This document shows, piece after piece, positions 2,808-57,541 of a stretch of DNA of 64,000 bases (its first letter is position 1; each line of letters begins with the position of its first letter). The translations under genes were made by a program, and so were the position numbers. The DNA is from Bacteroidota bacterium (lineage in GTDB: Bacteria > Bacteroidota > Bacteroidia > Chitinophagales > Chitinophagaceae): positions 1 to 64,000 of the forward strand of contig JABDDT010000002.1 in the NCBI GenBank assembly GCA_013287475.1, given 5' to 3'. The notes under the pieces were generated by a model. The model was not told the origin of the DNA. It made no database searches and worked only from the letters and a program-made list of their open reading frames with translations.

Positions 2808-3674
2808 ATGGCAGTATTAGTCAACAAAAATTCAAAAATCATTGTACAGGGCTTCACAGGAACAGAAGGCAGCTTTCATGCATTGCAGATGATCGAATAC
2901 GGAACTCAGGTGGTGGGTGGAGTAACACCCGGAAAAGGCGGTAGCAAACATCTTGACCGCCCGGTTTTCAATACGGTTGCAGACGCTGTGAAAACTACTG
3001 GTGCTAATGTGTCTATTATTTTTGTGCCACCGGCTTTTGCAGCAGATGCCATCATGGAATCTGCTGAAGCAGGTATCGCCCTGATAGTCTGTATCACGGA
3101 AGGTATTCCTGTGCAGGATATGGTAAAGGCAAAACATTATTTAACGGGCACCAATAGCCGGTTGATTGGCCCAAATTGTCCGGGAGTTATTACACCGGGA
3201 GAATGTAAAGTAGGTATCATGCCCGGATTTGTTTTTAAAACCGGGAAGATTGGAATTGTATCCAAATCCGGAACGTTAACTTATGAAGCAGCAGACCAGG
3301 TAGTAAAAGCGGGTCTGGGTATCTCTACAGCCATTGGAATTGGTGGAGATCCCATCATCGGCACTACCACAAAAGAAGCGGTGGAATTATTGATGAATGA
3401 TCCCGAAACAGAAGGTATAGTAATGATTGGAGAAATTGGCGGCAGCATGGAAGCGGAAGCAGCACGGTGGATAAAAGTAAATTACCGTAAGCCGGTGGTT
3501 GGATTTATTGCAGGGCAGACAGCACCACCCGGACGCCGTATGGGTCATGCAGGTGCAATTATCGGCGGAGCCGACGACACTGCTTCAGCAAAAATGAAAA
3601 TCATGACAGAATGTGGTATTGAAGTGGTGCAAAGCCCCGCTAATATCGGAGCAACTATGGCGAGGGTGCTGTGA
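2808..3674 (+). CDS. sucD: Succinate-CoA ligase alpha subunit
   Basis: [52 protein letters not shown]. Confidence 0.95.
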
Positions 3675-3710
3675 AGCCTAAAGCTTAAAGCCTAAAGCTT
3701 AAAGCTTAAA
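3674..3710. repeat. Heptad array, family A (AAGCCTA/AAGCTTA), left arm
   Basis: AAGCCTA AAGCTTA AAGCCTA AAGCTTA AAGCTTA; starts at the last base of the sucD stop codon. Confidence 0.9.
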
Positions 3711-3762
3711 ACTTTTTATTGATAATGCTATTTACGAATTAAGTAATGGTTTCAATAAATTT

Positions 3763-3796
3763 AAAATCCTCTTGATATTCTGAGAGGATTTTTTCT
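3763..3796 (+). terminator. Intrinsic terminator nested between family A arms
   Basis: AAAATCCTCT-N10-AGAGGATTTT followed by a T-rich tract. Confidence 0.85.
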
Positions 3797-3799
3797 TTT

Positions 3800-3836
3800 A
3801 AAAGCTTTAGGCCTTAAGCTTTAGGCTTTTGGCTTT
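3800..3836. repeat. Heptad array, family A, inverted right arm
   Basis: AAAGCTT TAGGCCT TAAGCTT TAGGCTT TTGGCTT, complementary to the left arm. Confidence 0.88.
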
Positions 3837-3850
3837 GCATTATTTATGTT

Positions 3851-4912
3851 ATGAAGAAAGTGGATGTTTTGATTGTTGGACAAGGACTCGCAGGAACCTG
3901 GCTCAGCTACTGGTTACATAAATCCGGAGTTTCTTTTAAACTCATCGATCAGATAAATCCGGATAGCGCTTCCATTCGCGCGGCTGGCCTGATTAACCCT
4001 GTCACAGGAAGAAGACTCGTTACTACCTGGATGATAGATGAACTTATGCCCTTTGCAAAAAATGCATATCAGGAAATAGGAAATTTTCTGGAGGAAAATT
4101 TTATTGACGAAATAAGCTTGATTGATTTCTTTCCAACTGTGCAAATGTTACAGGCTTTTCAGAAACGTTATGAGGAAGATCCGTCTTATCTGATTCCTGG
4201 TGAAGACAGTAAAAAATATGCAGAATGGTTCAGATATGATCTGGGGTGGGGTGCGATCCATCCATGCCAGTTAGTAAATGTCGAAAAATTATTGAAAAGC
4301 TGGAGAATATGGCTGAAAGAAAATAATTGCCTGGTTGACTGTCACTTTGATCCGTTTAAATTAAAAGAAACGGGTAAAAAGTTAGAATATTCGAATATGC
4401 GTGCCAGTTATATAATATTTTGTGACGGTAAATCATCTGCGCAAAATCCATATTTTAATAAATTACCATTCGCATTAAACAAAGGAGAAGCACTCTTGGT
4501 GGAAATAAAAAGCCTGCCTGCTGATAAGGTTTATAAAAAGGGTATGAGTCTGGTTCCCTGCGGGGAAAATATTTTCTGGCTGGGATCTTCTTACGAATGG
4601 TCATTCGACAATGACCTGCCATCAGAGAAATTCAGGAAAAATGGGGAGGAATGGCTGAATTTTAATATAAAATTACCTTATGCCATTCAAGAACATTTTG
4701 CATCCATTCGTCCAGCTACACTTGAACGAAGACCATTTGTTGGTTTTCATCCATTGAATTCCCGCATAGGTATATTAAACGGATTGGGAACCAAAGGTTG
4801 TTCGCTGGCTCCCTATTTCGGCAAACAGTTAGCTGATAAAATAACGGGTAAGGAACTCATCGACCCGCTGGTAGACATCAGTCGTTTTGAAAAAATTCTT
4901 ACACGTATATAA
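3851..4912 (+). CDS. FAD-dependent oxidoreductase (DAO family)
   Basis: N-terminal GQGLAGTWLSYWL dinucleotide-binding motif; C-terminal LNGLGTKGCSLAPYF. Confidence 0.8.
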   Translation: MKKVDVLIVGQGLAGTWLSYWLHKSGVSFKLIDQINPDSASIRAAGLINPVTGRRLVTTWMIDELMPFAKNAYQEIGNFLEENFIDEISLIDFFPTVQMLQAFQKRYEEDPSYLIPGEDSKKYAEWFRYDLGWGAIHPCQLVNVEKLLKSWRIWLKENNCLVDCHFDPFKLKETGKKLEYSNMRASYIIFCDGKSSAQNPYFNKLPFALNKGEALLVEIKSLPADKVYKKGMSLVPCGENIFWLGSSYEWSFDNDLPSEKFRKNGEEWLNFNIKLPYAIQEHFASIRPATLERRPFVGFHPLNSRIGILNGLGTKGCSLAPYFGKQLADKITGKELIDPLVDISRFEKILTRI

Positions 4913-4922
4913 TTCGAAAAGG

Positions 4923-4949
4923 TTTTAGGCTTTAAGCTTTACGCTTTCT
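4923..4949. repeat. Heptad array, family A, overlapping the 3' end of the M90 peptidase CDS
   Basis: TTTTAGG CTTTAAG CTTTACG CTTTC; contains the stop codon of the minus-strand gene. Confidence 0.8.
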
Positions 4950-5767
4950 TTCGCCTTCACCATAAAGACTGCTTTGCCAATGTTGTTATTGCGCATTTGC
5001 AAAGGATCCTGACGAAGAAGGCTGATCATAGCCTGGTATAATTCCGGCAGGTCGTGTTGCATGCAAACAGGATTTTCGAAGAAAGTTTCGACTGACACAG
5101 CCCAGAATTCATGGTAATTGACTGCAGCATATTCACCCAGCAGGTTGCGGTTTCCTCCCTGCATACTTGTAAAAATGGGTCGTGCAACTTTAGAGAAGTT
5201 TTTGAATTCTTTTTTAAAATGTTTGTCTTCTTCAGTTTCTGTTATGAAAGTAACATAAGCCAGAGCATGACCCATTTCATGAAGCCCGACATTGCAATTG
5301 GGAGTCTGACCGGTAATGCCTTTGATAAAATTATCCCAGGAAAGATAAATTCCACTCTGATCCACATGACCCATAAAAGGACGGGAATAGAATCCATAGT
5401 GGTAATCATCTTTCAAAACATAAATGTCGTTGAAGTAATTCAGCATATATTTATCGAGACCGAATGTGAGTTGTATTGCAACGGCGCTGATAAGAATGGG
5501 CATTTCTGCACTCTCTTTAACTTCGATATAATGAAAGCGCCGGGATTTTCTGAATAAAAAAGTACGGAAAAGGAATCTTCGCTGTTCTTCGAGGCCCAGG
5601 CGGTTATAAAAACGGATGTATTTGGAAACCACACTATGATAAAAAGTTTCGCACTCTATAAATTTATGCTGCTGGCGGCTTATATAGAGCTTATTGAATA
5701 AGGCTGAAAGAGGTCGGTGCAGGATCAGTACGGCCGTAACCAGCGCAACAATAATAATGAATTCCAT
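4925..5767 (-). CDS. Zinc-dependent peptidase, MtfA/M90-like
   Basis: HEMGHALAY HExxH motif in an MtfA-like context. Confidence 0.75.
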   Translation of the reverse strand: MEFIIIVALVTAVLILHRPLSALFNKLYISRQQHKFIECETFYHSVVSKYIRFYNRLGLEEQRRFLFRTFLFRKSRRFHYIEVKESAEMPILISAVAIQLTFGLDKYMLNYFNDIYVLKDDYHYGFYSRPFMGHVDQSGIYLSWDNFIKGITGQTPNCNVGLHEMGHALAYVTFITETEEDKHFKKEFKNFSKVARPIFTSMQGGNRNLLGEYAAVNYHEFWAVSVETFFENPVCMQHDLPELYQAMISLLRQDPLQMRNNNIGKAVFMVKAKESVKLKA

Positions 5768-9756: not shown

Positions 9757-10584
9757 ATGTCTTATCAATTGCTTAAGGGGAAAAAAGGAATCATATTTGG
9801 TGCGTTGGATGAAAAATCTCTCGCATGGAGAACGGCCCTTCGGTGCCACCAGGAAGGCGCGGAAATCGTATTGACGAATGCTCCCGTCGCGTTGCGAATG
9901 GGTGAGATTAATAAACTAGCTGAAGAGATAAAAGCTCCGGTTATTGGTGCAGATGTAACTAAGTCGGAGGACTTGAAGAAACTGTTTGAAGATTCTATGA
10001 CGCACTTCGGCAGCAGGATTGATTTTGTATTGCATTCCGTAGGTATGAGTGTGAACATGAGGAAAGGGCGTGCTTATACAGAACTGGATTATGGTTTTAA
10101 TCAAAAAACGCTTGATATATCAGCAATCTCATTTCACAGAGTATTGCAAACGGCATATGAACTTGATGCGATCAACTATTGGGGCAGCGTAGTAGCCCTA
10201 ACATATATTGCCGCTCAAAGAGTATTTCCTGATTACAATGAAATGGCTGATGCCAAGGCTTTGCTGGAAAGTATTGCCAGGAGCTTCGGATATTATTATG
10301 GTATTAAGAAAAAAGTCCGCATTAATACCGTTTCACAATCACCTACAAAAACAACGGCTGGCAGTGGAGTAAAAGGATTTGACGGATTCCAGGAATATGC
10401 TGAAAAAATGAGCCCCTTGGGGAATGCGAGTGCGGATGATTGTGCTGGTTATGTCGCTGTATTATTCAGCGATCTGACAAAGATGGTCACGATGCAAAAT
10501 CTTTTTCACGATGGGGGCTTTTCCTTTACCGGTGTCACTGAAGCAGTAGTGGCTGAATTGGAGAAAAATTTGGAGAAAGCCTAA
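9757..10584 (+). CDS. fabI: Enoyl-ACP reductase (NADH), FabI type
   Basis: LLKGKKGIIFGALDEKSLAWRTA; SDR fold; VRINTVSQSPTKTTAGSGVKGFDGF. Confidence 0.92.
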   Translation: MSYQLLKGKKGIIFGALDEKSLAWRTALRCHQEGAEIVLTNAPVALRMGEINKLAEEIKAPVIGADVTKSEDLKKLFEDSMTHFGSRIDFVLHSVGMSVNMRKGRAYTELDYGFNQKTLDISAISFHRVLQTAYELDAINYWGSVVALTYIAAQRVFPDYNEMADAKALLESIARSFGYYYGIKKKVRINTVSQSPTKTTAGSGVKGFDGFQEYAEKMSPLGNASADDCAGYVAVLFSDLTKMVTMQNLFHDGGFSFTGVTEAVVAELEKNLEKA

Positions 10585-10614
10585 GGCCTAAAGCCCAAAG
10601 CTGAAAGCCTAAAA
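10579..10614. repeat. Heptad array, family A, left arm
   Basis: GCCTAAG GCCTAAA GCCCAAA GCTGAAA GCCTAAA; contains the fabI stop. Confidence 0.88.
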
Positions 10615-10663
10615 CTGATTTCTTTATCAAATGAATTGAATATTTGTCAACAAACTAAAATTT

Positions 10664-10694
10664 AAAAGTCCTCTCATTTTAAGAGAGGACTTTT
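10664..10694. terminator. Intrinsic bidirectional terminator nested between family A arms
   Basis: AAAAGTCCTCTC-ATTTTAA-GAGAGGACTTTT. Confidence 0.88.
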
Positions 10695-10709
10695 ACATTA
10701 TAAAAAGTT

Positions 10710-10746
10710 TTAGGCTTTAAGCTTTCGGCCTTGGGCCTTAAGCTTA
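10710..10746. repeat. Heptad array, family A, inverted right arm
   Basis: TTAGGCT TTAAGCT TTCGGCC TTGGGCC TTAAGCT; reaches the DUF2795 gene stop. Confidence 0.88.
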
Positions 10747-11827: not shown

Positions 11828-11896
11828 GAGTGTGAGAGTGTGAGAGTGTGAGAATAGGGTTTGAATTTTTATTCTCACACTCTCACACTCTCACAC
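11822..11896. repeat. Octad inverted repeat (GTGTGAGA x4 / TCTCACAC x3)
   Basis: Perfect 26-bp stem 11830-11855 / 11871-11896 with 15-nt loop; fills the whole gap between two convergent stop codons. Confidence 0.95.
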
Positions 11897-12456
11897 TATT
11901 TTCTCGGCTTCCATTTTATTTCAGTGACCCCGTTTAAGAGTCCGATGTATCGTGCCAGAACAAACAGATAATCACTCAGCCTGTTCAGATATTTAATAAT
12001 CAGCGGTTGGGCGAGGGGTTCGGTTTCATTGAGTTCTACAACAAATCTTTCGGCGCGGCGACAAACCGTGCGGCAAATATGCGCGGTTGAAACAGAGATA
12101 TTTCCGCCGGGAAGAATAAAAGATTTCATCTCCGGCAGTTTTTCATTCATCGAATCAATTTCATTTTCCAGAAGGAGAATATCTGATTCCCTGAGATCCG
12201 GGATCCTCATGGCAATTTCCTTATCAGGATCGCAAGCCAGAGATGAACCAATCGTAAAAAGCCTGTCCTGAATTTCCCGTAGCATCTCACGGCCATGTGT
12301 ATCCGCTAATTGATCGCCCAGCAATCCGATAAATGCATTTAGTTCATCCACGGTACCATAAGCTCCGATGCGGATATGACTTTTAGGGACCTTTGTCCCG
12401 CCGATCAGACTGGTTTTACCCGTGTCTCCGGTTTTAGTATATATTTTTAGAGACAT
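11896..12456 (-). CDS. Cob(I)alamin adenosyltransferase, PduO type
   Basis: MSLKIYTKTGDTGKTSLIGGTKVPKS; CRRAERFVVEL; LNRLSDYLFVLAR. Confidence 0.93.
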   Translation of the reverse strand: MSLKIYTKTGDTGKTSLIGGTKVPKSHIRIGAYGTVDELNAFIGLLGDQLADTHGREMLREIQDRLFTIGSSLACDPDKEIAMRIPDLRESDILLLENEIDSMNEKLPEMKSFILPGGNISVSTAHICRTVCRRAERFVVELNETEPLAQPLIIKYLNRLSDYLFVLARYIGLLNGVTEIKWKPRK

Positions 12457-12462
12457 GACTTT

Positions 12463-12546
12463 AATTATAGGTTATGAGTTATGGGTTGTGAATTATAGGC
12501 TCCTGATAAATTCATGTCCCATAACTCATAACCCATAATTCATAAT
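12463..12546. repeat. Heptad inverted repeat, family C (GGTTATGAGTTATGGG / CCCATAACTCATAACC)
   Basis: 16-bp perfect core, ~26-bp imperfect stem between two minus-strand genes. Confidence 0.88.
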
Positions 12547-18024: not shown

Positions 18025-18028
18025 AAGT

Positions 18029-18062
18029 AAGGGAGTATGGAAGTATGGGAGAATGGGAGTGT
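18029..18062. repeat. Octad array (GGGAGTAT-type), left arm
   Basis: GGGAGTATGGAAGTATGGGAGAATGGGAGTGTG just after the purS stop. Confidence 0.85.
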
Positions 18063-18131
18063 GATTCACGAAAGCCGGAACTTGATTCTCATACTCAAAC
18101 ATTAATTTTAAATATATTTTCCAAACCCCCA

Positions 18132-18160
18132 AACTCCCATACTCCCATACTCCCATACTA
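18132..18160. repeat. Octad array TCCCATAC x3, right arm
   Basis: Complementary to 18029-18062; ends next to the rsmI ATG. Confidence 0.9.
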
Positions 18161-23409: not shown

Positions 23410-23450
23410 CGAACCACAGTTAGTTAGGGATGGTAAAAATACGGATTTCA

Positions 23451-23491
23451 GGCTTAAAGCCTAACGCTTAAAGCTTAAAGCCTAACGCTTA
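23451..23491. repeat. Heptad array, family A, in a divergent intergenic region
   Basis: GGCTTAAAGC CTAACGC TTAAAGC TTAAAGC CTAACGC. Confidence 0.88.
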
Positions 23492-23568
23492 TTTTGTATC
23501 GTTGTTGCGATTTTTTTGTATAACCACAATTTAAAATCAGATTCCAAAGCTGGAATTTACAGAAATAC

Positions 23569-23634
23569 TTAAGCGTTCGGCCTTACGCCTTATGCCTTAG
23601 GCTTTATGCTTTAGGCCTTGGGCTTTAAGCCTTA
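23569..23634. repeat. Heptad array, family A inverted, upstream of tgt
   Basis: TAAGCGT TCGGCCT TACGCCT TATGCCT TAGGCTT TATGCTT TAGGCCT TGGGCTT TAAGCCT. Confidence 0.9.
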
Positions 23635-23649
23635 AATTGCGTCTCTACT

Positions 23650-24789
23650 ATGGCCCAGTTATCATTCGAATTAAGCGGGAAAGATACCGCTTCGTCGGCA
23701 CGTGCAGGCTTGATGCGTACTGATCATGGCGAAATACAGACTCCCATATTTATGCCTGTTGGCACGGCAGGAAGCGTAAAAGCCGTTACTGGTGACCAGC
23801 TGATTCAGGAAATTCACGCTAAAATCATCCTTGGAAATACCTATCATCTTTATCTGCGTCCGGGAACTGAAGTGTTGGAAAAAGCCGGCGGCTTACACAG
23901 TTTTATGAATTGGGATCTCCCAATTCTGACCGACAGTGGCGGATACCAGGTTTTTTCCCTCGCTGGAACAAGGAAGATCTCGGAAGAAGGAGTCATATTT
24001 AAATCTCATATTGACGGATCACCCCATATGTTCAGCCCTGAAAAAGTAATGGATATTCAGCGCAGTATTGGCGGGGATATTATCATGGCATTTGATGAAT
24101 GTCCTGCATTTGGAACAGGGTACGAATATGCGGAGAAATCCATGCACCTGACACACCGCTGGCTCGACAGATGTTTAAAACGATTCAATGAAATGCCTGA
24201 CAGATATGGATATGCGCAAAATCTTTTTCCCATTGTCCAGGGTGGGATATTTGCAAATCTCCGTCGCGAATCCTGTGAATATATTGCTTCAAAAAATGCA
24301 CCCGGGAATGCCATCGGCGGATTAAGTGTGGGAGAGCTGGATCAAGAATTATATTCTATGACGGCTCTTTGCTGTGAGCATTTACCGCCTGAGAAGCCCC
24401 GGTACCTGATGGGAGTAGGCACTCCCTGGAATTTATTGGAATGCATCAGTCTTGGTATCGATATGTTTGATTGTGTAATGCCCACCCGCAACGGAAGAAA
24501 TGGCATGTTGTTCACTTCCCGTGGGGTGATCAATATTGATAATAAAAAATGGGAGAATGATTTCTCTGCTATCGATGACGGGATCGATTGCTCTTTCAGC
24601 AATAAATACAGTAAAGCCTATCTCCGTCATTTGATGAAGAGTAAAGAACTCACAGCGCTTACCATCGCAAGTGTACATAATCTTGCATTCTATCTGCATC
24701 TCGTGCAACAGGCAAGAATGCATATCCTGGCAGGCGATTTCTCCGGCTGGAAGTCACAACAGATGGGGATTTTGAGGGAACGACTTTAA
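23650..24789 (+). CDS. tgt: tRNA-guanine transglycosylase
   Basis: TPIFMPVGTAGSVKAVT, DSGGYQVFSLA, MPTRNGRNGMLF. Confidence 0.97.
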   Translation: MAQLSFELSGKDTASSARAGLMRTDHGEIQTPIFMPVGTAGSVKAVTGDQLIQEIHAKIILGNTYHLYLRPGTEVLEKAGGLHSFMNWDLPILTDSGGYQVFSLAGTRKISEEGVIFKSHIDGSPHMFSPEKVMDIQRSIGGDIIMAFDECPAFGTGYEYAEKSMHLTHRWLDRCLKRFNEMPDRYGYAQNLFPIVQGGIFANLRRESCEYIASKNAPGNAIGGLSVGELDQELYSMTALCCEHLPPEKPRYLMGVGTPWNLLECISLGIDMFDCVMPTRNGRNGMLFTSRGVINIDNKKWENDFSAIDDGIDCSFSNKYSKAYLRHLMKSKELTALTIASVHNLAFYLHLVQQARMHILAGDFSGWKSQQMGILRERL

Positions 24790-24825
24790 TAAGCCTAAAG
24801 CTTAAAGCCTAAAGCCTAAAACCTT
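24790..24825. repeat. Heptad array, family A, left arm after tgt
   Basis: AAGCCTA AAGCTTA AAGCCTA AAGCCTA. Confidence 0.9.
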
Positions 24826-24903
24826 TTAAGTATAAAAGTGCGGGGATTATTAATAATGTAACAGAAATGATTTATAATATAATAGTCGGAGATCCAAAAA
24901 GAA

Positions 24904-24951
24904 GTTTTAGGCTTTAAGCTTTAGGCTTTATGCTTTAAGCTTTAGGCTTAA
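24904..24951. repeat. Heptad array, family A, inverted right arm
   Basis: TTTTAGG CTTTAAG CTTTAGG CTTTATG CTTTAAG CTTTAGG, up to the M1 peptidase stop. Confidence 0.9.
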
Positions 24952-26897
24952 TTACCTTTCCACACATTATTACTCTCATCGATATCAGGCAGCATCTTGT
25001 CAGGATCGGCAGTCACAGATTCGATTGTTCGTGTGGATGGGTATAAGAATTTCCATTCTCCGCCCCTCTGCCAGATTTCAACAGGAAGGTTGACCCTTCC
25101 GGTTTTACCTCCCGTTTCTTTTATTTCTACCGTTACAGGCATCGGAAGTTTTTCACGGTTTTGAATTGTAATCAATGCTCCATTCACCGGATTACCCTGT
25201 TGATATTCCACGTTTGTTACTGCCACATCAAATTTCCAGTTATTAATAAACCAGCCCCGCCAGAACCAGCTCAAATCTTCACCGCTGCCATTTTCCATGG
25301 CATGAAAGAAGTCCCACGGTGTAGGATGTTTGAATGCCCAGCTTCGGATATAATACCTGAACGCTGAATCAAACCTTTCTTCACCCAGTATATCATATCT
25401 CAAAAGCTGCAGGCCCATTCCTGGTTTTTCATAAGCATTCACAGAGAGATACCGGCCATTCGTCACTTCAGGGATCGTCATGATGGATTCGGAATTTGGC
25501 TGGAAAAATCGGGTTGCCCGTTCAGGATAACGGGGTTTCCTGAAAAATTCGCCATGATTGAAATCCTGATTTGCCACCGAATTGATAAAAGTGTTGAAGC
25601 CTTCATCCATCCAGGGATATTTTCGCTCATTGCTTCCGACAATCATAGGAAACCATGTATGACCGAACTCATGACTGGTAACACCCCATAATTCTCTTCC
25701 CCTGGAAGATGCATGACAGAATACAATTCCGGGATATTCCATACCAGCTACATTGCCGGCTGCATTTACTGCATTCGGGTAAGGATATGGGTACCATCTG
25801 GAAGAATATCCTTCGATGGCTCCTTTCACAAATTCCGTAGATCTTTTCCAGGCGGAATCACTGGCAGATTCAATCGGATAGACCGACATAGCGAGTGATT
25901 TTTTTCCATCCGGCAGGTTTATCCTTGCGGCATCCCAGATGAAAGCAGTGGAAGAAGCAAATGCGACATCACGCGTATGATCACATCTGAAATGCCAAAC
26001 GAGTTTACTTTTCGACAATCTGCCTGATTTATTTTTTACTTCACCTTCCGAACGGATCATCACGGTTTTATCACTGTTACGGGCTGCATCCAGGCGTTTC
26101 ATCTGATCGGGTGTGAGCACTTCTGAAGGATTCATCAGTTCCCCTGATGCAACCACGAGCTGATTCGAAGAAGTTGTAATGGTGAAATCATAATTTCCAT
26201 ATTCAAGGTAAAACTCACCGGCACCGATATATGGCAGTGCATTCCATCCGAGAACATTGTCATAAACACACATGCGCGGATACCATTGTCCGATCGTATA
26301 GATCCAACCGTAGGAAGTTTCCATTCGCCCCATCCGGTCTGTGCCATGTTCAGGAATTCCAAAACTGTAAACAATATTTATTTTCAGGGAATCACCATGA
26401 CCCTTCATCGCCTCCGGCAGAAAAATCTGCATCCTTGTATCGTTAATGATATAGTGAATTTTTTGTTCTCTTCCCTGATAACTGACGGAAACAGATTGAA
26501 TCGCATATCCTCCCGAGAATCCTATATTCATATAACGACTACCCTCAACCGGAGTTGTTACCTCACCGCGGGAATCCGGTTTGTAAATATTCTGATCCAG
26601 CTGGAGCCATAAAAAAGGTAATGATTCGGGGCTGTTATTTTTATAGGTAATCTGCACATTGCCTGAAATCTGATGATTTACATCATCCAGGGTTGCATGA
26701 ATATTATAATCTGCTTCATTTTGCCAGTATTTTGAACCGGGTGTTCCCGCAGCTGTTCTTACTTCATCTCCATACGCAGGATAGAATATAGGAGCAAACG
26801 CTTCATGCTGATCATAGTTCCCAACAGACTGTGAAAGTCCTGAATATGAAATGGAAATCAATAAGGCAAACAGCCATAAGTTTTTCTTAACAAACAT
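24948..26897 (-). CDS. M1 family metallopeptidase, secreted
   Basis: HEFGHTWFPMIVGSNERKYPWMDEGFNTF; signal peptide. Confidence 0.9.
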   Translation of the reverse strand: MFVKKNLWLFALLISISYSGLSQSVGNYDQHEAFAPIFYPAYGDEVRTAAGTPGSKYWQNEADYNIHATLDDVNHQISGNVQITYKNNSPESLPFLWLQLDQNIYKPDSRGEVTTPVEGSRYMNIGFSGGYAIQSVSVSYQGREQKIHYIINDTRMQIFLPEAMKGHGDSLKINIVYSFGIPEHGTDRMGRMETSYGWIYTIGQWYPRMCVYDNVLGWNALPYIGAGEFYLEYGNYDFTITTSSNQLVVASGELMNPSEVLTPDQMKRLDAARNSDKTVMIRSEGEVKNKSGRLSKSKLVWHFRCDHTRDVAFASSTAFIWDAARINLPDGKKSLAMSVYPIESASDSAWKRSTEFVKGAIEGYSSRWYPYPYPNAVNAAGNVAGMEYPGIVFCHASSRGRELWGVTSHEFGHTWFPMIVGSNERKYPWMDEGFNTFINSVANQDFNHGEFFRKPRYPERATRFFQPNSESIMTIPEVTNGRYLSVNAYEKPGMGLQLLRYDILGEERFDSAFRYYIRSWAFKHPTPWDFFHAMENGSGEDLSWFWRGWFINNWKFDVAVTNVEYQQGNPVNGALITIQNREKLPMPVTVEIKETGGKTGRVNLPVEIWQRGGEWKFLYPSTRTIESVTADPDKMLPDIDESNNVWKGN

Positions 26898-28203: not shown

Positions 28204-29526
28204 ATGACCATTAAGGAAAAATTTAAAATCAAAGCGGATAGCCTGAATGCAGAAGTAAAGGATATTCTCAAAGAACATGGTTCTAAAAAAATAGGAGAAG
28301 TTACCCTGTCACAGATTTACAGCGGGATGCGTGGTATGACGGGACTGGTTACGGAAACTTCTTTGCTCGATCCGCAGGAGGGCATTCGGTTTCGTGGATA
28401 TTCCATTCCTGAAATTCAGCAAAAACTTCCCAAAGCGCCCGGATGCAGTGAGCCTCTTCCGGAAGGATTGTTTTATCTTATGCTTTTGGGAGAACTTCCG
28501 AATGAAATAGATGTGCACGAACTAACGGCCAACTGGCAACGCCGCAGTCACGTTCCAAATTATGTTTTTGATGCCATTGAAGCTTTACCGGTTTCCTCTC
28601 ATCCGATGACGCAATTTGTCGTTGCGATCATGGCCCTGCAAACGGAAAGTCAGTTTGCAAAAAAATATGCAGAAGGACTGAATAAAAAAGATTACTGGGA
28701 AGCGGTATTTGACGATTCCATGAATCTGATAGCGCGGCTGCCAAGGGTAGCAGCTTATATCTACAGAAGAAAATATAAAAACGGGGAACATATTCAACCC
28801 AATGGCCTGCTTGACTGGGCCGGAAATTTCGCCCATATGCTGGGGTATAAAAACGATACTTTTCATGAACTCATGCGGCTTTATATGACTATACATGCAG
28901 ATCATGAAGGTGGTAATGTGAGTGCGCATACAACCCATCTCGTGGGTTCTGCACTTAGCGATCCATATCTGAGTTTTGCAGCGGGCATGAACGGACTGGC
29001 AGGACCACTTCACGGGCTCGCCAACCAGGAAGTGATCAAATGGATCCTGGAAATGCGCGAAGAATTGGATACTGAACTGCCTACGCAGGAACAGATTGTT
29101 GCCTACGTGAAAAAAACGCTTAATGACGGGAAAGTGGTTCCGGGTTATGGGCATGCGGTATTGCGGAAAACAGATCCCCGTTTCACTGCCCAGATGGAAT
29201 TCGGGAAAAAACATCTTCCCGATGATTCACTTGTAAAAACTGTCTGGAATATATATGAGGCCGTTCCGCCTGTATTACAATCCCTCGGTAAAATAAAGAA
29301 CCCCTGGCCAAATGTAGACGCGCACAGCGGTGCCCTCCTCGTACATTTCGGATTGGTGGAATATGAATTCTATACCGTCTTATTTGGCGTGAGCCGCTCC
29401 CTCGGCGTACTCGCAAGCCTTTGCTGGGACCGGGCCCTGGGATATTCTCTGGAAAGACCCAAATCCGTAACAACTGAATCGGTTAAACAATGGTTGGAAG
29501 GGAAAGGAGAAATATGGGGGGAATAA
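28204..29526 (+). CDS. gltA: Citrate synthase (eukaryotic-like type)
   Basis: NVSAHTTHLVGSALSDPYLSFAAGMNGLAGPLHGLANQEV; GYGHAVLRKTDPR. Confidence 0.94.
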   Translation: MTIKEKFKIKADSLNAEVKDILKEHGSKKIGEVTLSQIYSGMRGMTGLVTETSLLDPQEGIRFRGYSIPEIQQKLPKAPGCSEPLPEGLFYLMLLGELPNEIDVHELTANWQRRSHVPNYVFDAIEALPVSSHPMTQFVVAIMALQTESQFAKKYAEGLNKKDYWEAVFDDSMNLIARLPRVAAYIYRRKYKNGEHIQPNGLLDWAGNFAHMLGYKNDTFHELMRLYMTIHADHEGGNVSAHTTHLVGSALSDPYLSFAAGMNGLAGPLHGLANQEVIKWILEMREELDTELPTQEQIVAYVKKTLNDGKVVPGYGHAVLRKTDPRFTAQMEFGKKHLPDDSLVKTVWNIYEAVPPVLQSLGKIKNPWPNVDAHSGALLVHFGLVEYEFYTVLFGVSRSLGVLASLCWDRALGYSLERPKSVTTESVKQWLEGKGEIWGE

Positions 29527-29529
29527 CAA

Positions 29530-29603
29530 TTAATGTGACGAATACGGAAATGTACTGAATTAAAAATGGGGAAATTAAATGGGAAAATGATAATGTGGGA
29601 ATG
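29530..29603. repeat. Left ~74-bp inverted repeat flanking the four-helix-bundle ORF
   Basis: TTAATGTGACGAATACGGAAATG...AATGGGGAAATTAAATGGGAAAATGATAATGTGGGAATG. Confidence 0.93.
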
Positions 29604-29709
29604 AAAGATGAAAAGGAGAAATAAGCAATTATTTCTGGTGTAATCACTTCAAAGATCTATTTGATTTGCAATAATATTGATCATCCTAAGGATCAAATAT
29701 TATTGAATA

Positions 29710-30054
29710 ATGAAAGAGAATATCATCCTGAACAAATCCATCAATTTTTCGGTCGGTATTAGAAATTATTGTCAGGCACTTTATTTCAAAAAAGAAACAA
29801 CGATTGCAAACCAGTTGATAAGATGTGGAATGGCGATTGGTGCAAATATTTCAGAAGCGCAACAGGCAGAGAGCAGGTCGGACTTCATACATAAAATGAA
29901 AATTGCTGCGAAAGAAGCGAGTGAATCGCTTTATTGGCTGTCAGTTTGTGAAAAATCAGACATAGCAGGATTTCAGCATGAGTTGATGAGTGAAGTAAAT
30001 CAGATCATTGCGATCCTTTCGAAAATTATTATATCAGCAAAGAAAAATATCTAA
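29710..30054 (+). CDS. Four helix bundle protein (S23/IVP-like, TIGR02436 type)
   Basis: GANISEAQQAESRSDFIHKMKIAAKEASESLYWL is the family signature. Confidence 0.9.
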   Translation: MKENIILNKSINFSVGIRNYCQALYFKKETTIANQLIRCGMAIGANISEAQQAESRSDFIHKMKIAAKEASESLYWLSVCEKSDIAGFQHELMSEVNQIIAILSKIIISAKKNI

Positions 30055-30066
30055 CGCATAAATCCA

Positions 30067-30141
30067 CATTCCCACATTATCATTTCCCCATTTAATTTCC
30101 CCATTTTTTAATTCCCAGCATTTCCGTATTCGCCACATTAA
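30067..30141. repeat. Right ~75-bp inverted repeat flanking the four-helix-bundle ORF
   Basis: Reverse complement matches 29530-29603 at roughly 90% by eye, one 1-nt gap. Confidence 0.93.
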
Positions 30142-30146
30142 AAGAA

Positions 30147-31307
30147 CTATAACGCCTGTAAGATGTCATTAAGAATATCATCCCTGTGTTCCAGTCCGCA
30201 GGAAATGCGTATAAGCCCCGGCGTTATATTAACTGCCTGTCTTTCTTCTTCGGTTAATTTGGCGTGTGTTGTACTTGCCGGATGAGAAGCAATACTGCGT
30301 GTATCGCCGAGGTTGGCGGTGCGCGAAAGCATTTTCAGATTATCGAGGAATTTTCTTCCGTTATCCAATCCGCCTTTCAGTTCAAAACAAAAGAGACCGC
30401 CACCGTTTTTCATTTGTTTTTTTGCAATCGCATACTGAGGATGTGATTCGAGAAAAGGATATTTAAGCCAGCTGATAGCCGGATGATTTTGCAATTGCTG
30501 CGACAGGTAAAATGCATTGGATGCATGACGCTCCATCCTGACTTCCAGGGTTTCAAGGCTTCTGCTCAGGACCCACGCATTAAAGGGAGAAAGGGCCGGA
30601 CCGGTACTCCGGCAGAAAAGATATATTTCATGTATGAGCTTTTTACTGCCCAGTACTATTCCACCAAGCACGCGTCCTTGTCCATCAAGCCATTTGGTTG
30701 CAGAATGCACTACCAGGTCGGCGCCAAATTCAACAGGAAGCTGTCCTATGGGCGTTGCAAAACAATTGTCAACGCAATAAATCAGGCCATGTTTTTTTGC
30801 AAGATCGCCTACTTCCTTCAAATCTATCAGATCCAGCCCCGGGTTTGTCGGTGATTCCAGATAAATCATTTTAGTATTATCCTGTACCGCTGCTTCCCAT
30901 GATGCAATGTCATATACCGGTACATATGTATATTCAATGCCATATTTAGGCAGAATCTTCGTAATAACAGTATGTGTACTTCCGAAGATCGCATTACATG
31001 AAATCAGGTGGTCTCCTTTTTTGAGAAAAGTCAGTATGGATGCAAAGACAGCACTCATTCCGGAAGAAGTGGCGAATCCTGATTCCATTCCTTCCAGTAC
31101 ACACATGCGGTCAGTAAATTCCTGTACGCTGGGATTGGAAAATCGACTGTAGATATTGTCGTCATTTTCGTCGGCAAATGCAGCACGCATTTCTTCCGCA
31201 TTGTCGAAACTGAAACTGCTGGTAAGAAACAACGGTGAGGAATGTTCCATTTCATTGGTCTGCTCCACTCGGGTGCGGATCATTTTGGATACGGGGTGTA
31301 AGGACAT
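30147..31307 (-). CDS. Cys/Met metabolism PLP-dependent enzyme (O-succinylhomoserine sulfhydrylase / trans-sulfuration type)
   Basis: SATKWLDGQGRVLGG PLP lysine region; SRFSNPSVQEF; next to an acyl-homoserine synthesis gene. Confidence 0.88.
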   Translation of the reverse strand: MSLHPVSKMIRTRVEQTNEMEHSSPLFLTSSFSFDNAEEMRAAFADENDDNIYSRFSNPSVQEFTDRMCVLEGMESGFATSSGMSAVFASILTFLKKGDHLISCNAIFGSTHTVITKILPKYGIEYTYVPVYDIASWEAAVQDNTKMIYLESPTNPGLDLIDLKEVGDLAKKHGLIYCVDNCFATPIGQLPVEFGADLVVHSATKWLDGQGRVLGGIVLGSKKLIHEIYLFCRSTGPALSPFNAWVLSRSLETLEVRMERHASNAFYLSQQLQNHPAISWLKYPFLESHPQYAIAKKQMKNGGGLFCFELKGGLDNGRKFLDNLKMLSRTANLGDTRSIASHPASTTHAKLTEEERQAVNITPGLIRISCGLEHRDDILNDILQAL

Positions 31308-32867: not shown

Positions 32868-32875
32868 TTTAAATA

Positions 32876-32992
32876 GGATATGGGATATGAGATATGAGAT
32901 ATGGATTGGAATAATATTTTCAACAATCGCTCATAATCCATAATCCATAACCCATATCCCATATCTCATACCTCATAACCCATATCCCATAA
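32876..32992. repeat. Heptad inverted repeat, family C (ATGGGAT/ATGAGAT)
   Basis: GGATATGGGATATGAGATATGAGATATGGATT vs AATCCATAATCCATAACCCATATCCCATATCTCAT... Confidence 0.88.
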
Positions 32993-32996
32993 CTAT

Positions 32997-34427
32997 TTAA
33001 AGAGTCAGCCTTCCTTCGTAATATTCTAAAATTTTCGTTCTGAAAATATAATTATACCGGGCGGCGCTCAGGTTTAGATTGGCGCGGTCTACATTATTCT
33101 TTGCGATCACATAATCCACGGATGTAAGTACACCAGCATTGAAACGGATTTCTGCCGTACGGAACGACTCCCCATAGGCGCGCACCTGATCCACATAACC
33201 CTTGTATTGTCCGTATGCAGAACGGAGATTCTGCCAGGCTTGTTCTACCATTTGTTGCAGCTGGTAGTGAGAAGAAGTGGAAATTATTTTGGCATTTTCA
33301 TAATTCAACTTGGCAATTTTCACGTTGTTTCTTAAGGATAAATAATTCAGAATCGGAATATTCAGTTGCAGACCGATTGACTGGAACCGGTTATTTTTTA
33401 CCTGGTCAACAAAGGCAGTTTTTTCGGTCGGATAGCCGTTTGCCTGTACGTCATAAGTGTTCGGACCAATGGTAACAAACTCTCCGGTATTTCCAGGTGT
33501 TGGTAAACTGTTCGCAATCGTATTCGTCGCGATACTCGTATAGTTTGAATTCAGATTGCCATAAAAATAAAGTGATGGCCACATTTTACCTCGGGCAACT
33601 GCAATACTTTTCTGAAATGACTGGACACGGAGGTCATTCGCCTTGATTGTTGGAATGGTTTGCAAGGCTGCCTGGTATATGCTGTCTGAACTGCCATTCA
33701 AATCACTGATATCCGCATTCATATTCACCATTTCATACACCGCGTCTTTTTGATAGGGCACGTTGAGATAAGAAAATAAAGTCACTTTTGCAGTTTCTAA
33801 TGCATTGATGGCATTCACTACTGTTACCTCATCACTGGCATACTGACCCTGTAGATCGGATAAAGTTGCAGGGGGGATAGCTCCCTGCTCGTTCTGAATT
33901 GCAAGGCGCGCCACCTGGGCCGAATCAACGGAAGCCTGTTTATTTGCAATGCCAAGGGCCTCCTGGCTACTCAGCACCGTTAGATATGCATTTAATACCA
34001 GCAGGGTAATATTATCTTTCTGCTGTTGCAGGTCCATCTTACTGGCATGATAGAACAATGCATTTTGTTTGATGGCATTTTGCAGCTGAAGACCGTTGAA
34101 TAAAAGAAGGTTGCCATTGAGTGAATAACTTCCGGAACTATTCTGTTGATCAACATATGTATTATTGGTGGAATTTACGCTCCTTCCGTAATTATTCCCC
34201 TGTGAAACAGTTCCGCTAATCTGTGGAAGTAAATTATCCTTGGCCTGTTTAAATGTAACACCGTTCGTTTCCAGCGTTATTTGACTTTGCTGAACCAGCA
34301 GATTATTCTTGATGGCGAGATCAACACATTGCTTTATAGAAAGGAATTTTGTGCTGTCCTGACTAAAACCTGAATTATGAAAAATCAGAATAAAAATAAA
34401 AACCCAACTGCTGTACCGCTTCATCAT
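32997..34427 (-). CDS. TolC family outer membrane efflux protein
   Basis: SIKQCVDLAIKNNLLVQQSQITLE; paired OEP repeats; signal peptide. Confidence 0.9.
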   Translation of the reverse strand: MMKRYSSWVFIFILIFHNSGFSQDSTKFLSIKQCVDLAIKNNLLVQQSQITLETNGVTFKQAKDNLLPQISGTVSQGNNYGRSVNSTNNTYVDQQNSSGSYSLNGNLLLFNGLQLQNAIKQNALFYHASKMDLQQQKDNITLLVLNAYLTVLSSQEALGIANKQASVDSAQVARLAIQNEQGAIPPATLSDLQGQYASDEVTVVNAINALETAKVTLFSYLNVPYQKDAVYEMVNMNADISDLNGSSDSIYQAALQTIPTIKANDLRVQSFQKSIAVARGKMWPSLYFYGNLNSNYTSIATNTIANSLPTPGNTGEFVTIGPNTYDVQANGYPTEKTAFVDQVKNNRFQSIGLQLNIPILNYLSLRNNVKIAKLNYENAKIISTSSHYQLQQMVEQAWQNLRSAYGQYKGYVDQVRAYGESFRTAEIRFNAGVLTSVDYVIAKNNVDRANLNLSAARYNYIFRTKILEYYEGRLTL

Positions 34428-48806: not shown

Positions 48807-49277
48807 TCAGGAAGAAAAATTCGCAACTGCTTCGTGGCGCACCGGGAAATTAACTGAGTTTGAAATGAAACAAAAATGATGTGCTTTGTCGTGGAGAGCA
48901 GCCGTTTTTTCTATCATCCATTCTTCTTTCACTTTGACCACCGGATGCAAAATAACCTCTGAGAATTTTCCATTGCCATCATCTGATTCAAGCATCGTTC
49001 CTGTGGCCGCATCAATATAATCCAAAACAATAATGGATGCTACCGAACAAAAATGAAGAAACCAGAGCATATGACAGGAGGAGAGAGATGCCAGAAACAT
49101 TTCCTCAGGATTGTATTTTAATTTATCACCCCGAAAGGATGGATCTGAAGAAGCTTCGAGGACAGGTTTTCCTTCTACTGAAATAGTATGTGCTCTTTCA
49201 TATCCGCGGTAACTCTCGGTGCCTTTACCTGTATTGCCGGTCCATCGGAGGTTGGTTTTGTAATAGTGTTGTTTCAT
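48807..49277 (-). CDS. OsmC family protein
   Basis: GDKLKYNPEEMFLASLSSCHMLWFLHFC. Confidence 0.9.
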   Translation of the reverse strand: MKQHYYKTNLRWTGNTGKGTESYRGYERAHTISVEGKPVLEASSDPSFRGDKLKYNPEEMFLASLSSCHMLWFLHFCSVASIIVLDYIDAATGTMLESDDGNGKFSEVILHPVVKVKEEWMIEKTAALHDKAHHFCFISNSVNFPVRHEAVANFSS

Positions 49278-49281
49278 TATT

Positions 49282-49380
49282 AATTGAGTTATGGGATATA
49301 GGATATAGGATATGGGTTATGAATTATGAGTTAAGATCAAATGCTCTCATAACTCATATCCCATAACCCATATCTCAATT
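49282..49380. repeat. Heptad inverted repeat, family C
   Basis: GAGTTATGGGATATAGG...GTTATGAATTATGAGTT vs CTCATAACTCATATCCCATAACCCATATCTCAATT. Confidence 0.87.
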
Positions 49381-50475
49381 AAGTTTTGAAGTGATAATTC
49401 CACCTCCGATAATGTCATCGCCTTCATAAAAAACGGCGCTTTGTCCGGGTGCGATACTTTTTACCGGTTCATAAAAATGCACGCGTAATTTATTTCCTTC
49501 TGCATAAATATTGCTCAACGCTCCTTTATCTTTATATCGGATTTTTGTAATTACTTCCATCCCTTCCGGAACTGTTTCGTATTTCTGCAGGTTCAGCCCG
49601 GACACCATAAGCGACCTTCCTTCGAGATCTTTTTCGTCTCCAAGTACAACGGTATTATTTTCAGGGTGAATGGCGGTAACATATACCGGTTTCCCGAATG
49701 TAATATCAAGACCCTTACGCTGGCCGATTGTATAAAATGGATAACCGCGGTGATTGCCGATAATATTTCCTCCTGCATCAACAAAATGACCTCCTTCAAC
49801 AGTAGTTTCAAGTCCGGGTATTTTCTTTTTCAGAAATCCGCGATAGTCATTGTCCGGTACAAAACAAATTTCATAACTCTCACTTTTCTTTGCCAGTTCC
49901 GGATAACCGTAATCAATGGCCATCTGACGGATTTCAGGTTTCTTATATTTTCCGAGTGGAAGCATGGTTCGGCTGAGCAGATCCTGCTGCAGTCCCCATA
50001 ACACATAGCTCTGATCTTTTTGTTCATCTACGCCTTTGCTGAGGAAAAATCGTCCATTTTCATGCTGATGTATGAATGCATAGTGACCCGTGGCGATAAA
50101 CTCGCAATCCAGTGCATCCGCTCTTTTCAGCAGGGCGCGCCATTTAATATGCGTATTGCACATGACGCAGGGATTGGGAGTACGCCCTGCGAGATATTCT
50201 TCAACAAAATTGTCGATTACGGCTGTGCCGAACTCATCCCGGATATCCAGTACAAAATGCGGAAAGCCATGCTGAACAGCTGCCATACGGGCATCATTGA
50301 AACTGTCCAGGTTACAACAACCGGTTTCTTTTTTGGATGAACCCGAGCCGGCATAGTCCCAGGTCTTCATCGTAATGCCAATCACTTCGTAACCCTGATC
50401 CTTCAGCATGAGGGCAGTGATGGTACTGTCGATACCTCCGCTCATGGCCACCAGAACCTTTCCTTTTCTGCTCAT
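49375..50475 (-). CDS. mnmA: tRNA 2-thiouridine(34) synthase
   Basis: KVLVAMSGGIDSTITALML; NPCVMCNTHIKW; start set to MSRKGKV (50475). Confidence 0.96.
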   Translation of the reverse strand: MSRKGKVLVAMSGGIDSTITALMLKDQGYEVIGITMKTWDYAGSGSSKKETGCCNLDSFNDARMAAVQHGFPHFVLDIRDEFGTAVIDNFVEEYLAGRTPNPCVMCNTHIKWRALLKRADALDCEFIATGHYAFIHQHENGRFFLSKGVDEQKDQSYVLWGLQQDLLSRTMLPLGKYKKPEIRQMAIDYGYPELAKKSESYEICFVPDNDYRGFLKKKIPGLETTVEGGHFVDAGGNIIGNHRGYPFYTIGQRKGLDITFGKPVYVTAIHPENNTVVLGDEKDLEGRSLMVSGLNLQKYETVPEGMEVITKIRYKDKGALSNIYAEGNKLRVHFYEPVKSIAPGQSAVFYEGDDIIGGGIITSKLN

Positions 50476-57420: not shown

Positions 57421-57541
57421 GGTTATGGGATATGAGATATGGGTTATGAGATATGGGATATGGGTTAAGGGTTATAGGATTTGAACTAACTATGAGTAGA
57501 ATAAAATTTAAATTCATATCTCATAACCCATATCTCATAAT
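57419..57541. repeat. Heptad inverted repeat, family C
   Basis: 25-bp perfect arms TATGAGATATGGGTTATGAGATATG (57431-57455) / complement (57515-57539). Confidence 0.93.

Follow-up and report, generated by a model that had tools for sequence, protein, structure and literature searches.

Within the 64-kb stretch of DNA analysed here (the window), the gap between the convergent genes gltA and metZ holds a long hairpin with a small protein gene in its loop. The features of the locus are as follows.

28204-29526, + strand: gltA (citrate synthase; PF00285, 314 bits), the left flank, outside the cassette.
29530-29603, no strand: 5' arm of the cassette hairpin, apparently of degenerate AATGTG/AATGGG-type octamers, a type read from relatives.
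29670-29704, no strand: small inner palindrome AATAATATTGATC..GATCAAATATTATT, immediately upstream of the start codon, recognized from sequence and fold.
29710-30054, + strand: TIGR02436 / S23-IVP four-helix-bundle protein of 114 amino acids, occupying the hairpin loop.
30067-30141, no strand: 3' arm of the cassette hairpin, which pairs with 29530-29603.
30147-31307, - strand: metZ, O-succinylhomoserine sulfhydrylase-like and convergent (PF01053, 427 bits), the right flank, outside the cassette.

The first-pass annotation of this DNA had described inverted repeats of roughly 90% identity at 29530-29603 and 30067-30141, fitted between the gltA stop and the convergent sulfhydrylase stop and enclosing a single TIGR02436-type gene, and this description is accurate. 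The arms (74 and 75 bp), one aligned to the reverse complement of the other, agree in 70 of the 77 columns; the remainder are 2 mismatches and 5 gap positions. Their Smith-Waterman score is 58.5, whereas shuffling the dinucleotides of the 1.1-kb region 300 times gave 11.0 on average and never more than 17.0, and they form the top-scoring inverted repeat within the window. The 5' arm starts 3 bp past the gltA stop, which ends at 29526, and the 3' arm ends 5 bp short of the end of the sulfhydrylase gene at 30147 on the - strand. The sole open reading frame between them (29710-30054) belongs to the family, with 81.0 bits against TIGR02436 (cut-off 24) and 65.5 bits against PF05635 (cut-off 33.8). 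No known RNA family was found at the locus. The window arms are weakly periodic and degenerate, and fail an automatic period test; their octamer character is suggested by their relatives.

Structures have been solved for the S23/IVP family and, to our knowledge, it has no known function. The high-confidence AlphaFold2 model of the window protein has four helices (mean pLDDT 94.5), and its nearest solved structures are 2RLD, the top match, and 2GSC, which is a homopentamer of four-helix bundles (PMC4990558). Values of pN/pS are mostly 0.05-0.3, and the protein is under purifying selection.

Much of the genus has gltA and metZ as a convergent pair, and the junction between the two genes takes several forms. 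It is 16 bp long with no hairpin in G003, contains a gene-less AATGTG/AATTTG octamer hairpin in G006 and G008, and has ordinary terminator-like stems in G017 and G012; among the junctions compared, hairpin and gene occur together only in the window. The first-pass annotation had guessed at a mobile cassette, and had proposed searching for an empty junction and for similar repeats around other four-helix-bundle genes. Both were found, as junctions lacking the hairpin or the gene in these relatives and as the repeats described below, and they support the guess; the opposing pattern, a block fixed in all relatives with no such repeats at other family members, was not found. A different near-perfect hairpin, with arms of ~72 bp and hardly periodic, lies at the junction of G015 (L039). 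If the gene-less octamer hairpins of G006 and G008 need a cognate protein in trans, then a gene of the window's clade is predicted elsewhere in these genomes. Each genome carries one, flanked by AATGTGNN octamers, with an internal stop codon in G008 (G008:C24) and with a clear octamer tract and a weak inverted repeat in G006 (G006:C38). Two other window-clade genes that were examined (L334 and L336) are of the octamer type too.

The assembly from which the window comes (G000; 3.16 Mb, 74% complete) contains seven TIGR02436 genes, and all seven are flanked by inverted repeats. In most of them a microrepeat of 7 or 8 nt is visible, and each gene has a different one: the heptad motifs are CGCTTAA/CGCGGAA, AAGCCTA, GTTGGCT, and TAATTAT, and the octamer motifs are AGTGTGGT, AGTATAAG, and the degenerate AATGTG type of the window. 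The weakest pair, GTTGGCT, scores 18.0 against a shuffle maximum of 14.7. Similar hairpins elsewhere between genes had also been remarked on in the first reading of the sequence, and the window indeed has ten gene-less intergenic hairpins (score at least 20), all with 7- or 8-nt periodicity. Among them are the following.

3680-3836, no strand: gene-less hairpin of AAGCCTA heptads, the motif of the resident four-helix-bundle gene L002.
10577-10745, no strand: gene-less hairpin of AAGCCTA heptads, the motif of the resident four-helix-bundle gene L002.
11829-11897, no strand: gene-less hairpin of AGTGTGAG octamers, the motif of the resident four-helix-bundle gene L005.
18026-18159, no strand: gene-less hairpin of AGTATGGG octamers, the motif of the resident four-helix-bundle gene L007.
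23445-23637, no strand: gene-less hairpin of AAGCCTA/AACGCTT heptads, with L001 as its best match.
24787-24954, no strand: gene-less hairpin of AAGCCTA heptads, the motif of the resident four-helix-bundle gene L002.

The window hairpins at 12463-12540, 32868-33001, 49273-49390, and 57431-57539 consist of ATATGGG/TTATGAG heptads. This is the main unmatched group in G000, where no matching TIGR02436 gene was found in the 74% of the genome that is assembled; relatives L021 and L028 carry a TIGR02436 gene with repeats of this type.

A scan of 464 kb sampled from G000 (score at least 20) identified 36 hairpins, nearly all with 7- or 8-nt periodicity. Loops measure 5-117 nt in gene-less hairpins and 371-474 nt in gene-bearing ones, and the arms are near-identical within one hairpin and different between hairpins. 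When arms of resident TIGR02436 genes were compared with equal numbers of random family arms, short-loop hairpins were better matched to the resident arms (p<0.05) in 22 of 36 cases in G000 and 7 of 10 in G008, where 5% would be expected. A membrane-protein gene (G000:C22:18901-19326), which we take to be DUF4293-like, was considered as a second type of gene carried in hairpins and was rejected, as it lies between separate repeats of the same motif and not within one hairpin. Another long-loop case in G000, a 55-bp repeat with a 183-nt spacer, is inside coding sequence beside runs of N.

The location of these hairpins relative to genes is relevant to the proposal that they are host transcription terminators or stabilisers of mRNA 3' ends, regulated by the gene. 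Hairpins are enriched in gaps between convergent genes, where the window copy also lies (16/36 hairpins compared with 37/223 gaps, p=0.0005), and are depleted between divergent genes (2/36 compared with 57/223, p=0.005). Such a distribution is expected if near-promoter insertions are lost, or if some of the hairpins act as terminators, and insertion followed by selection would leave the convergent bias equally well. However, more than half of the hairpins are outside convergent gaps, some are in 23S rRNA or inside coding sequence, and the gltA-metZ junction of relatives can do without a hairpin or have an ordinary terminator-like stem in its place. We regard a role as host terminators or stabilisers as improbable.

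Enclosure by inverted repeats extends well beyond the window's genome. Family genes with adequate flanks (133, taken from relatives, from the phylum, and from a set of 80 named contigs that covers many phyla) were compared with neighbouring open reading frames in the same loci, with control and test loci unequal in number per genome. An inverted repeat (score at least 18) encloses 78 of the 133 TIGR02436 genes (59%) and 6 of the 329 neighbours (1.8%), a frequency ~30 times higher (odds ratio 76, p=2.7e-44). The six enclosed controls include at least one further TIGR02436 gene, at L180. The repeats are typically 30-55 nt or less from the gene, and ~40% of family genes have no clear inverted repeat. 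Clear examples are found in Deltaproteobacteria (L107, 31/31 bases), Clostridia (L119), Planctomycetota (L129), Akkermansia (L173), Treponema (L145), and Bosea (L133). In the sample of Bacteroidota, 88 of 118 genomes carry the family, with 1-16 copies each, and tblastn of a phage collection found no relatives there.

Hairpin density was surveyed in 80-kb samples from 20 other genomes. Microrepeat hairpins are dense in G008 (11 per 100 kb; 99% complete) and present in G015 and G062. Seven of the eight sampled genomes that lack the family are free of them, and the eighth has one GC-type match that looks spurious. No microrepeat hairpin was seen in the 80 kb sampled from each of three family-rich genomes (G094, G132, and G058), and since hairpins are absent from several such genomes the TIGR02436 protein is at best necessary for them, and not sufficient. 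A comparison of density with gene count across 21 genomes is only suggestive (Mann-Whitney p=0.05), and proportionality between hairpin density and gene number is not supported in these genomes.

The type of repeat is paired with the subfamily of the protein. On a FastTree phylogeny of 193 proteins (the 110-residue protein), 92 were labelled heptamer and 32 octamer according to the unit length called in the arms. This labelling requires 5 changes on the tree, whereas 1000 shuffles of the labels needed 28.6 on average and never fewer than 22. Two subfamilies, that of the window and an EMQTQ/ELQTQ one, account for the octamers apart from three scattered cases. The nearest relatives of the window protein comprise 19 octamer loci, 10 that are unclear, and 1 heptamer locus, which is outside the clade. 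Motifs behave in a similar way, using patterns picked after inspection of the data: AATTTGNN/AATGTGNN octamers are associated with the window's clade, tandem AAT[TG]TGNN being present on both sides in 15/31 of its loci and 0/162 others; AG-type octamers occur in 13/15 of the EMQTQ clade; and AGTNNNNAGT heptads occur in 47/147 loci outside the two octamer clades and 0/46 within them. Unit length and motif follow the protein clade both within one genome and between genomes, and genome composition is not the explanation because heptamer and octamer genes coexist in G000. The association could also have arisen because the whole unit was inherited together, and not because the protein recognises the repeat. 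What goes beyond the first-pass annotation is that the stems are 7- or 8-nt microrepeats, that each protein subfamily has its repeat type, and that gene-less copies track the motif of a resident gene.

Plasmids of cyanobacteria provide examples of gain, loss, and insertion. Nearly all of the 10 family genes examined on these plasmids are flanked by inverted repeats or tracts of heptads of the STRR type, and in 8/10 the inverted repeat scores above every shuffle. At one site, between a TraM gene and a hypothetical gene, GGGAACA heptads and the TIGR02436 gene are present in Nostoc C052 and N. edaphicum; in Nostoc ATCC 53789 a hairpin of these heptads lacks the gene and shares its left junction with the filled copies; and the site is empty in two Nostoc C057 plasmids and one UHCC 0926 plasmid. 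A second site on Nostoc plasmids is filled in two cases and empty in four. Filled and empty states also contrast between ribonucleotide reductase subunits (L390 compared with L409) and between transporter genes (L387 compared with L407 and L408). Hairpin and gene come and go together, as one block, at gene junctions that are otherwise conserved.

In one plasmid (L404), a gene-less hairpin, 182 bp long and built of the same heptad, splits the TIGR02436 gene of the second site; the DNA is otherwise nearly identical, and this is direct evidence that gene-less hairpins insert. Gene-less hairpins that share a motif with the gene are dispersed in the same genomes and are able to insert into genes. 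The target duplications for which the first-pass annotation had proposed a check were not seen at this single event in coding sequence on a Nostoc plasmid, when compared with L401 and L403. An internal sequence, TCTGAATCCCCCACT, is common to gene-less Nostoc hairpins (L402 395-705 and the L404 insertion), which may therefore carry a conserved non-coding core.

There is no agreed explanation for the heptameric repeats of cyanobacteria, which were already known in 1990. These STRRs can form hairpins and are found at intergenic sites and in structural RNAs (PMC2670836; PMC4476775); the papers that we found give their function as unknown and do not tie them to an encoded protein. It is such tandem heptads that enclose TIGR02436 genes on the cyanobacterial plasmids, and the window copy differs from them in being of a degenerate octamer type and not cyanobacterial. 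In the trnL intron of Nostoc, the heptads that make up the P6b stem, TDNGATT or NNTGAGT, have undergone repeated replacement (PMC4476775), and by analogy with this published case the stem may be linked to TIGR02436 hairpins.

A further relationship is with the intervening sequences of 23S rRNA in Coxiella, Leptospira, and Salmonella, which similarly are hairpins with complementary ends and an S23/IVP reading frame in the loop. In Coxiella, tandem GACAGAT heptamers precede a reading frame that is decaying and probably untranslated (PMC4990558), so some copies survive without the protein. A locus from Spirochaetota (L382) matches 23S rRNA along its entire length (1726 bits) and has an intervening sequence with a decayed TIGR02436 reading frame and a heptad stem, GGACAGATGACAGAAGACTGAGGACAGAT on the rRNA strand, with a second, gene-less heptad hairpin in the same 23S gene. 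The window copy has the same arrangement of an S23 frame in the loop of a complementary-ended hairpin. Unlike the intervening sequences, the window copy (at gltA-metZ) and nearly all others are outside rRNA, and gene-less copies are dispersed; the pairing of protein clade with repeat type appears undescribed for 23S intervening sequences in the open-access literature.

Other known systems offer candidate partners for such a protein. The PF05635 fold may resemble that of Avd, a four-helix bundle of diversity-generating retroelements (Foldseek TM 0.63-0.75 to Avd chains, with E about 0.25-0.76), raising the idea that the protein helps a reverse transcriptase to copy the hairpin, as Avd does in those elements. 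A reverse transcriptase partner was rejected: RVT_1 (PF00078) was not found in G000, G008, G015, G006, G005, G446, or G452, several of them nearly complete and hairpin-rich, and an Avd-like role is largely refuted and very improbable. A second precedent is REPIN/RAYT, in which a genome has several independent protein-repeat families, each with many short inverted hairpins and one cognate protein family (PMC3116915). The same economy of short hairpins, one protein family, and non-autonomous copies is seen here, with several protein-repeat pairs per genome, and the hairpins might be REPINs moved by a RAYT/TnpA-REP Y1 transposase. Y1_Tnp (PF01797) is absent from G000 (74% complete), G008 (99% complete), G006, and G005, and the enclosed protein is a four-helix bundle; a RAYT/Y1 partner was rejected, and this reading, also largely refuted, has next to no chance of being correct. 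As both are absent from G008, which is hairpin-rich and nearly complete, and from G006 and the incomplete G000, neither an RVT_1-family reverse transcriptase nor a RAYT is required. The arms also differ from REPINs in being arrays of 7/8-nt microrepeats with the gene within the hairpin loop. Short gene-less inverted-repeat elements outnumber gene-bearing copies, as with MITEs and other non-autonomous derivatives of insertion sequences. Unlike MITEs and classical insertion sequences, there is no target duplication at the one readable insertion in coding sequence, and the gene-bearing form has TIGR02436 as its only reading frame and no transposase.

We consider it likely that 29530-30141 is a copy of a widespread mobile hairpin element, whose TIGR02436 protein binds the arms and drives copying. 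The best reading, by analogy, would be a system like REPIN/RAYT built on a four-helix-bundle protein. The element would have the TIGR02436 gene in its loop and an inverted arm on either side, the arms being typically built of microrepeats of 7 or 8 nt. Its protein, pentameric in a solved relative, may bind its own microrepeats as a folded single-stranded hairpin of DNA or RNA, and could promote hairpin copying to other sites, both in cis and in trans; both binding and copying are suggested here by patterns in the sequences. Copying itself would be done by host replication or repair enzymes, a role assigned to them since the element has no gene for a nuclease, recombinase, or reverse transcriptase of its own. 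Gene-less hairpins would be non-autonomous derivatives, insertions would survive mainly downstream of genes, where they are least harmful, and 23S intervening sequences would be copies that landed in rRNA and that RNase III removes from the transcript.

A different model is that the hairpins spread passively, through replication slippage or template switching at tandem microrepeats, with the gene as a passenger or as a regulator that binds hairpin RNA and has no role in movement. Quasi-palindrome correction would produce arms that are alike within a hairpin and unlike between hairpins, as observed, and the clear insertion without target duplication (L404) and the lack of proportion between hairpin and gene numbers are also consistent with passive spread. 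Against this, family genes are enclosed far more often than their neighbours, unit length and motif track the protein clade within and between genomes, insertions are found in clean sites and in coding sequence, and nearly all of the sampled genomes without the gene are also without microrepeat hairpins. On balance, we think passive spread unlikely.

If copying driven by the TIGR02436 protein is correct, this would be a mobile element without a known nuclease, recombinase, or reverse transcriptase. More tentatively, and with slightly less than even confidence, we suggest a class that spans phyla, in which a nuclease-less four-helix-bundle protein reads a microrepeat of 7 or 8 nt and drives hairpin copying both in cis and in trans, with 23S intervening sequences, cyanobacterial STRRs, and the heptad hairpins in the trnL intron of Nostoc among its products. 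No statement linking TIGR02436 to repeats or hairpins was found in open-access full texts, subscription papers being outside this scope. It appears that the class, with its pairing of protein and repeat and its gene-less copies, is new, and that the 23S intervening sequences, already known, are a special case of it. Most sampled Bacteroidota have members of the S23/IVP family, as do many other phyla, and a cognate relationship between protein and heptamer repeats gives both a testable role. It would account for a large class of intergenic hairpins and of insertions in introns and rRNA, and advises caution in reading such hairpins by default as terminators or regulators.

In a Daejeonella MAG (L180), two TIGR02436 genes, at 2977-3348 and 4826-5251, are inserted in one apparent fatty-acid oxidation operon. 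TIGR02436 cassettes also lie between cas6 and cas4 in CRISPR loci on plasmids of Pseudanabaena and Anabaena (L391 and L393), and the locus of L393 is of type I-D, as judged by its cas1d annotation.
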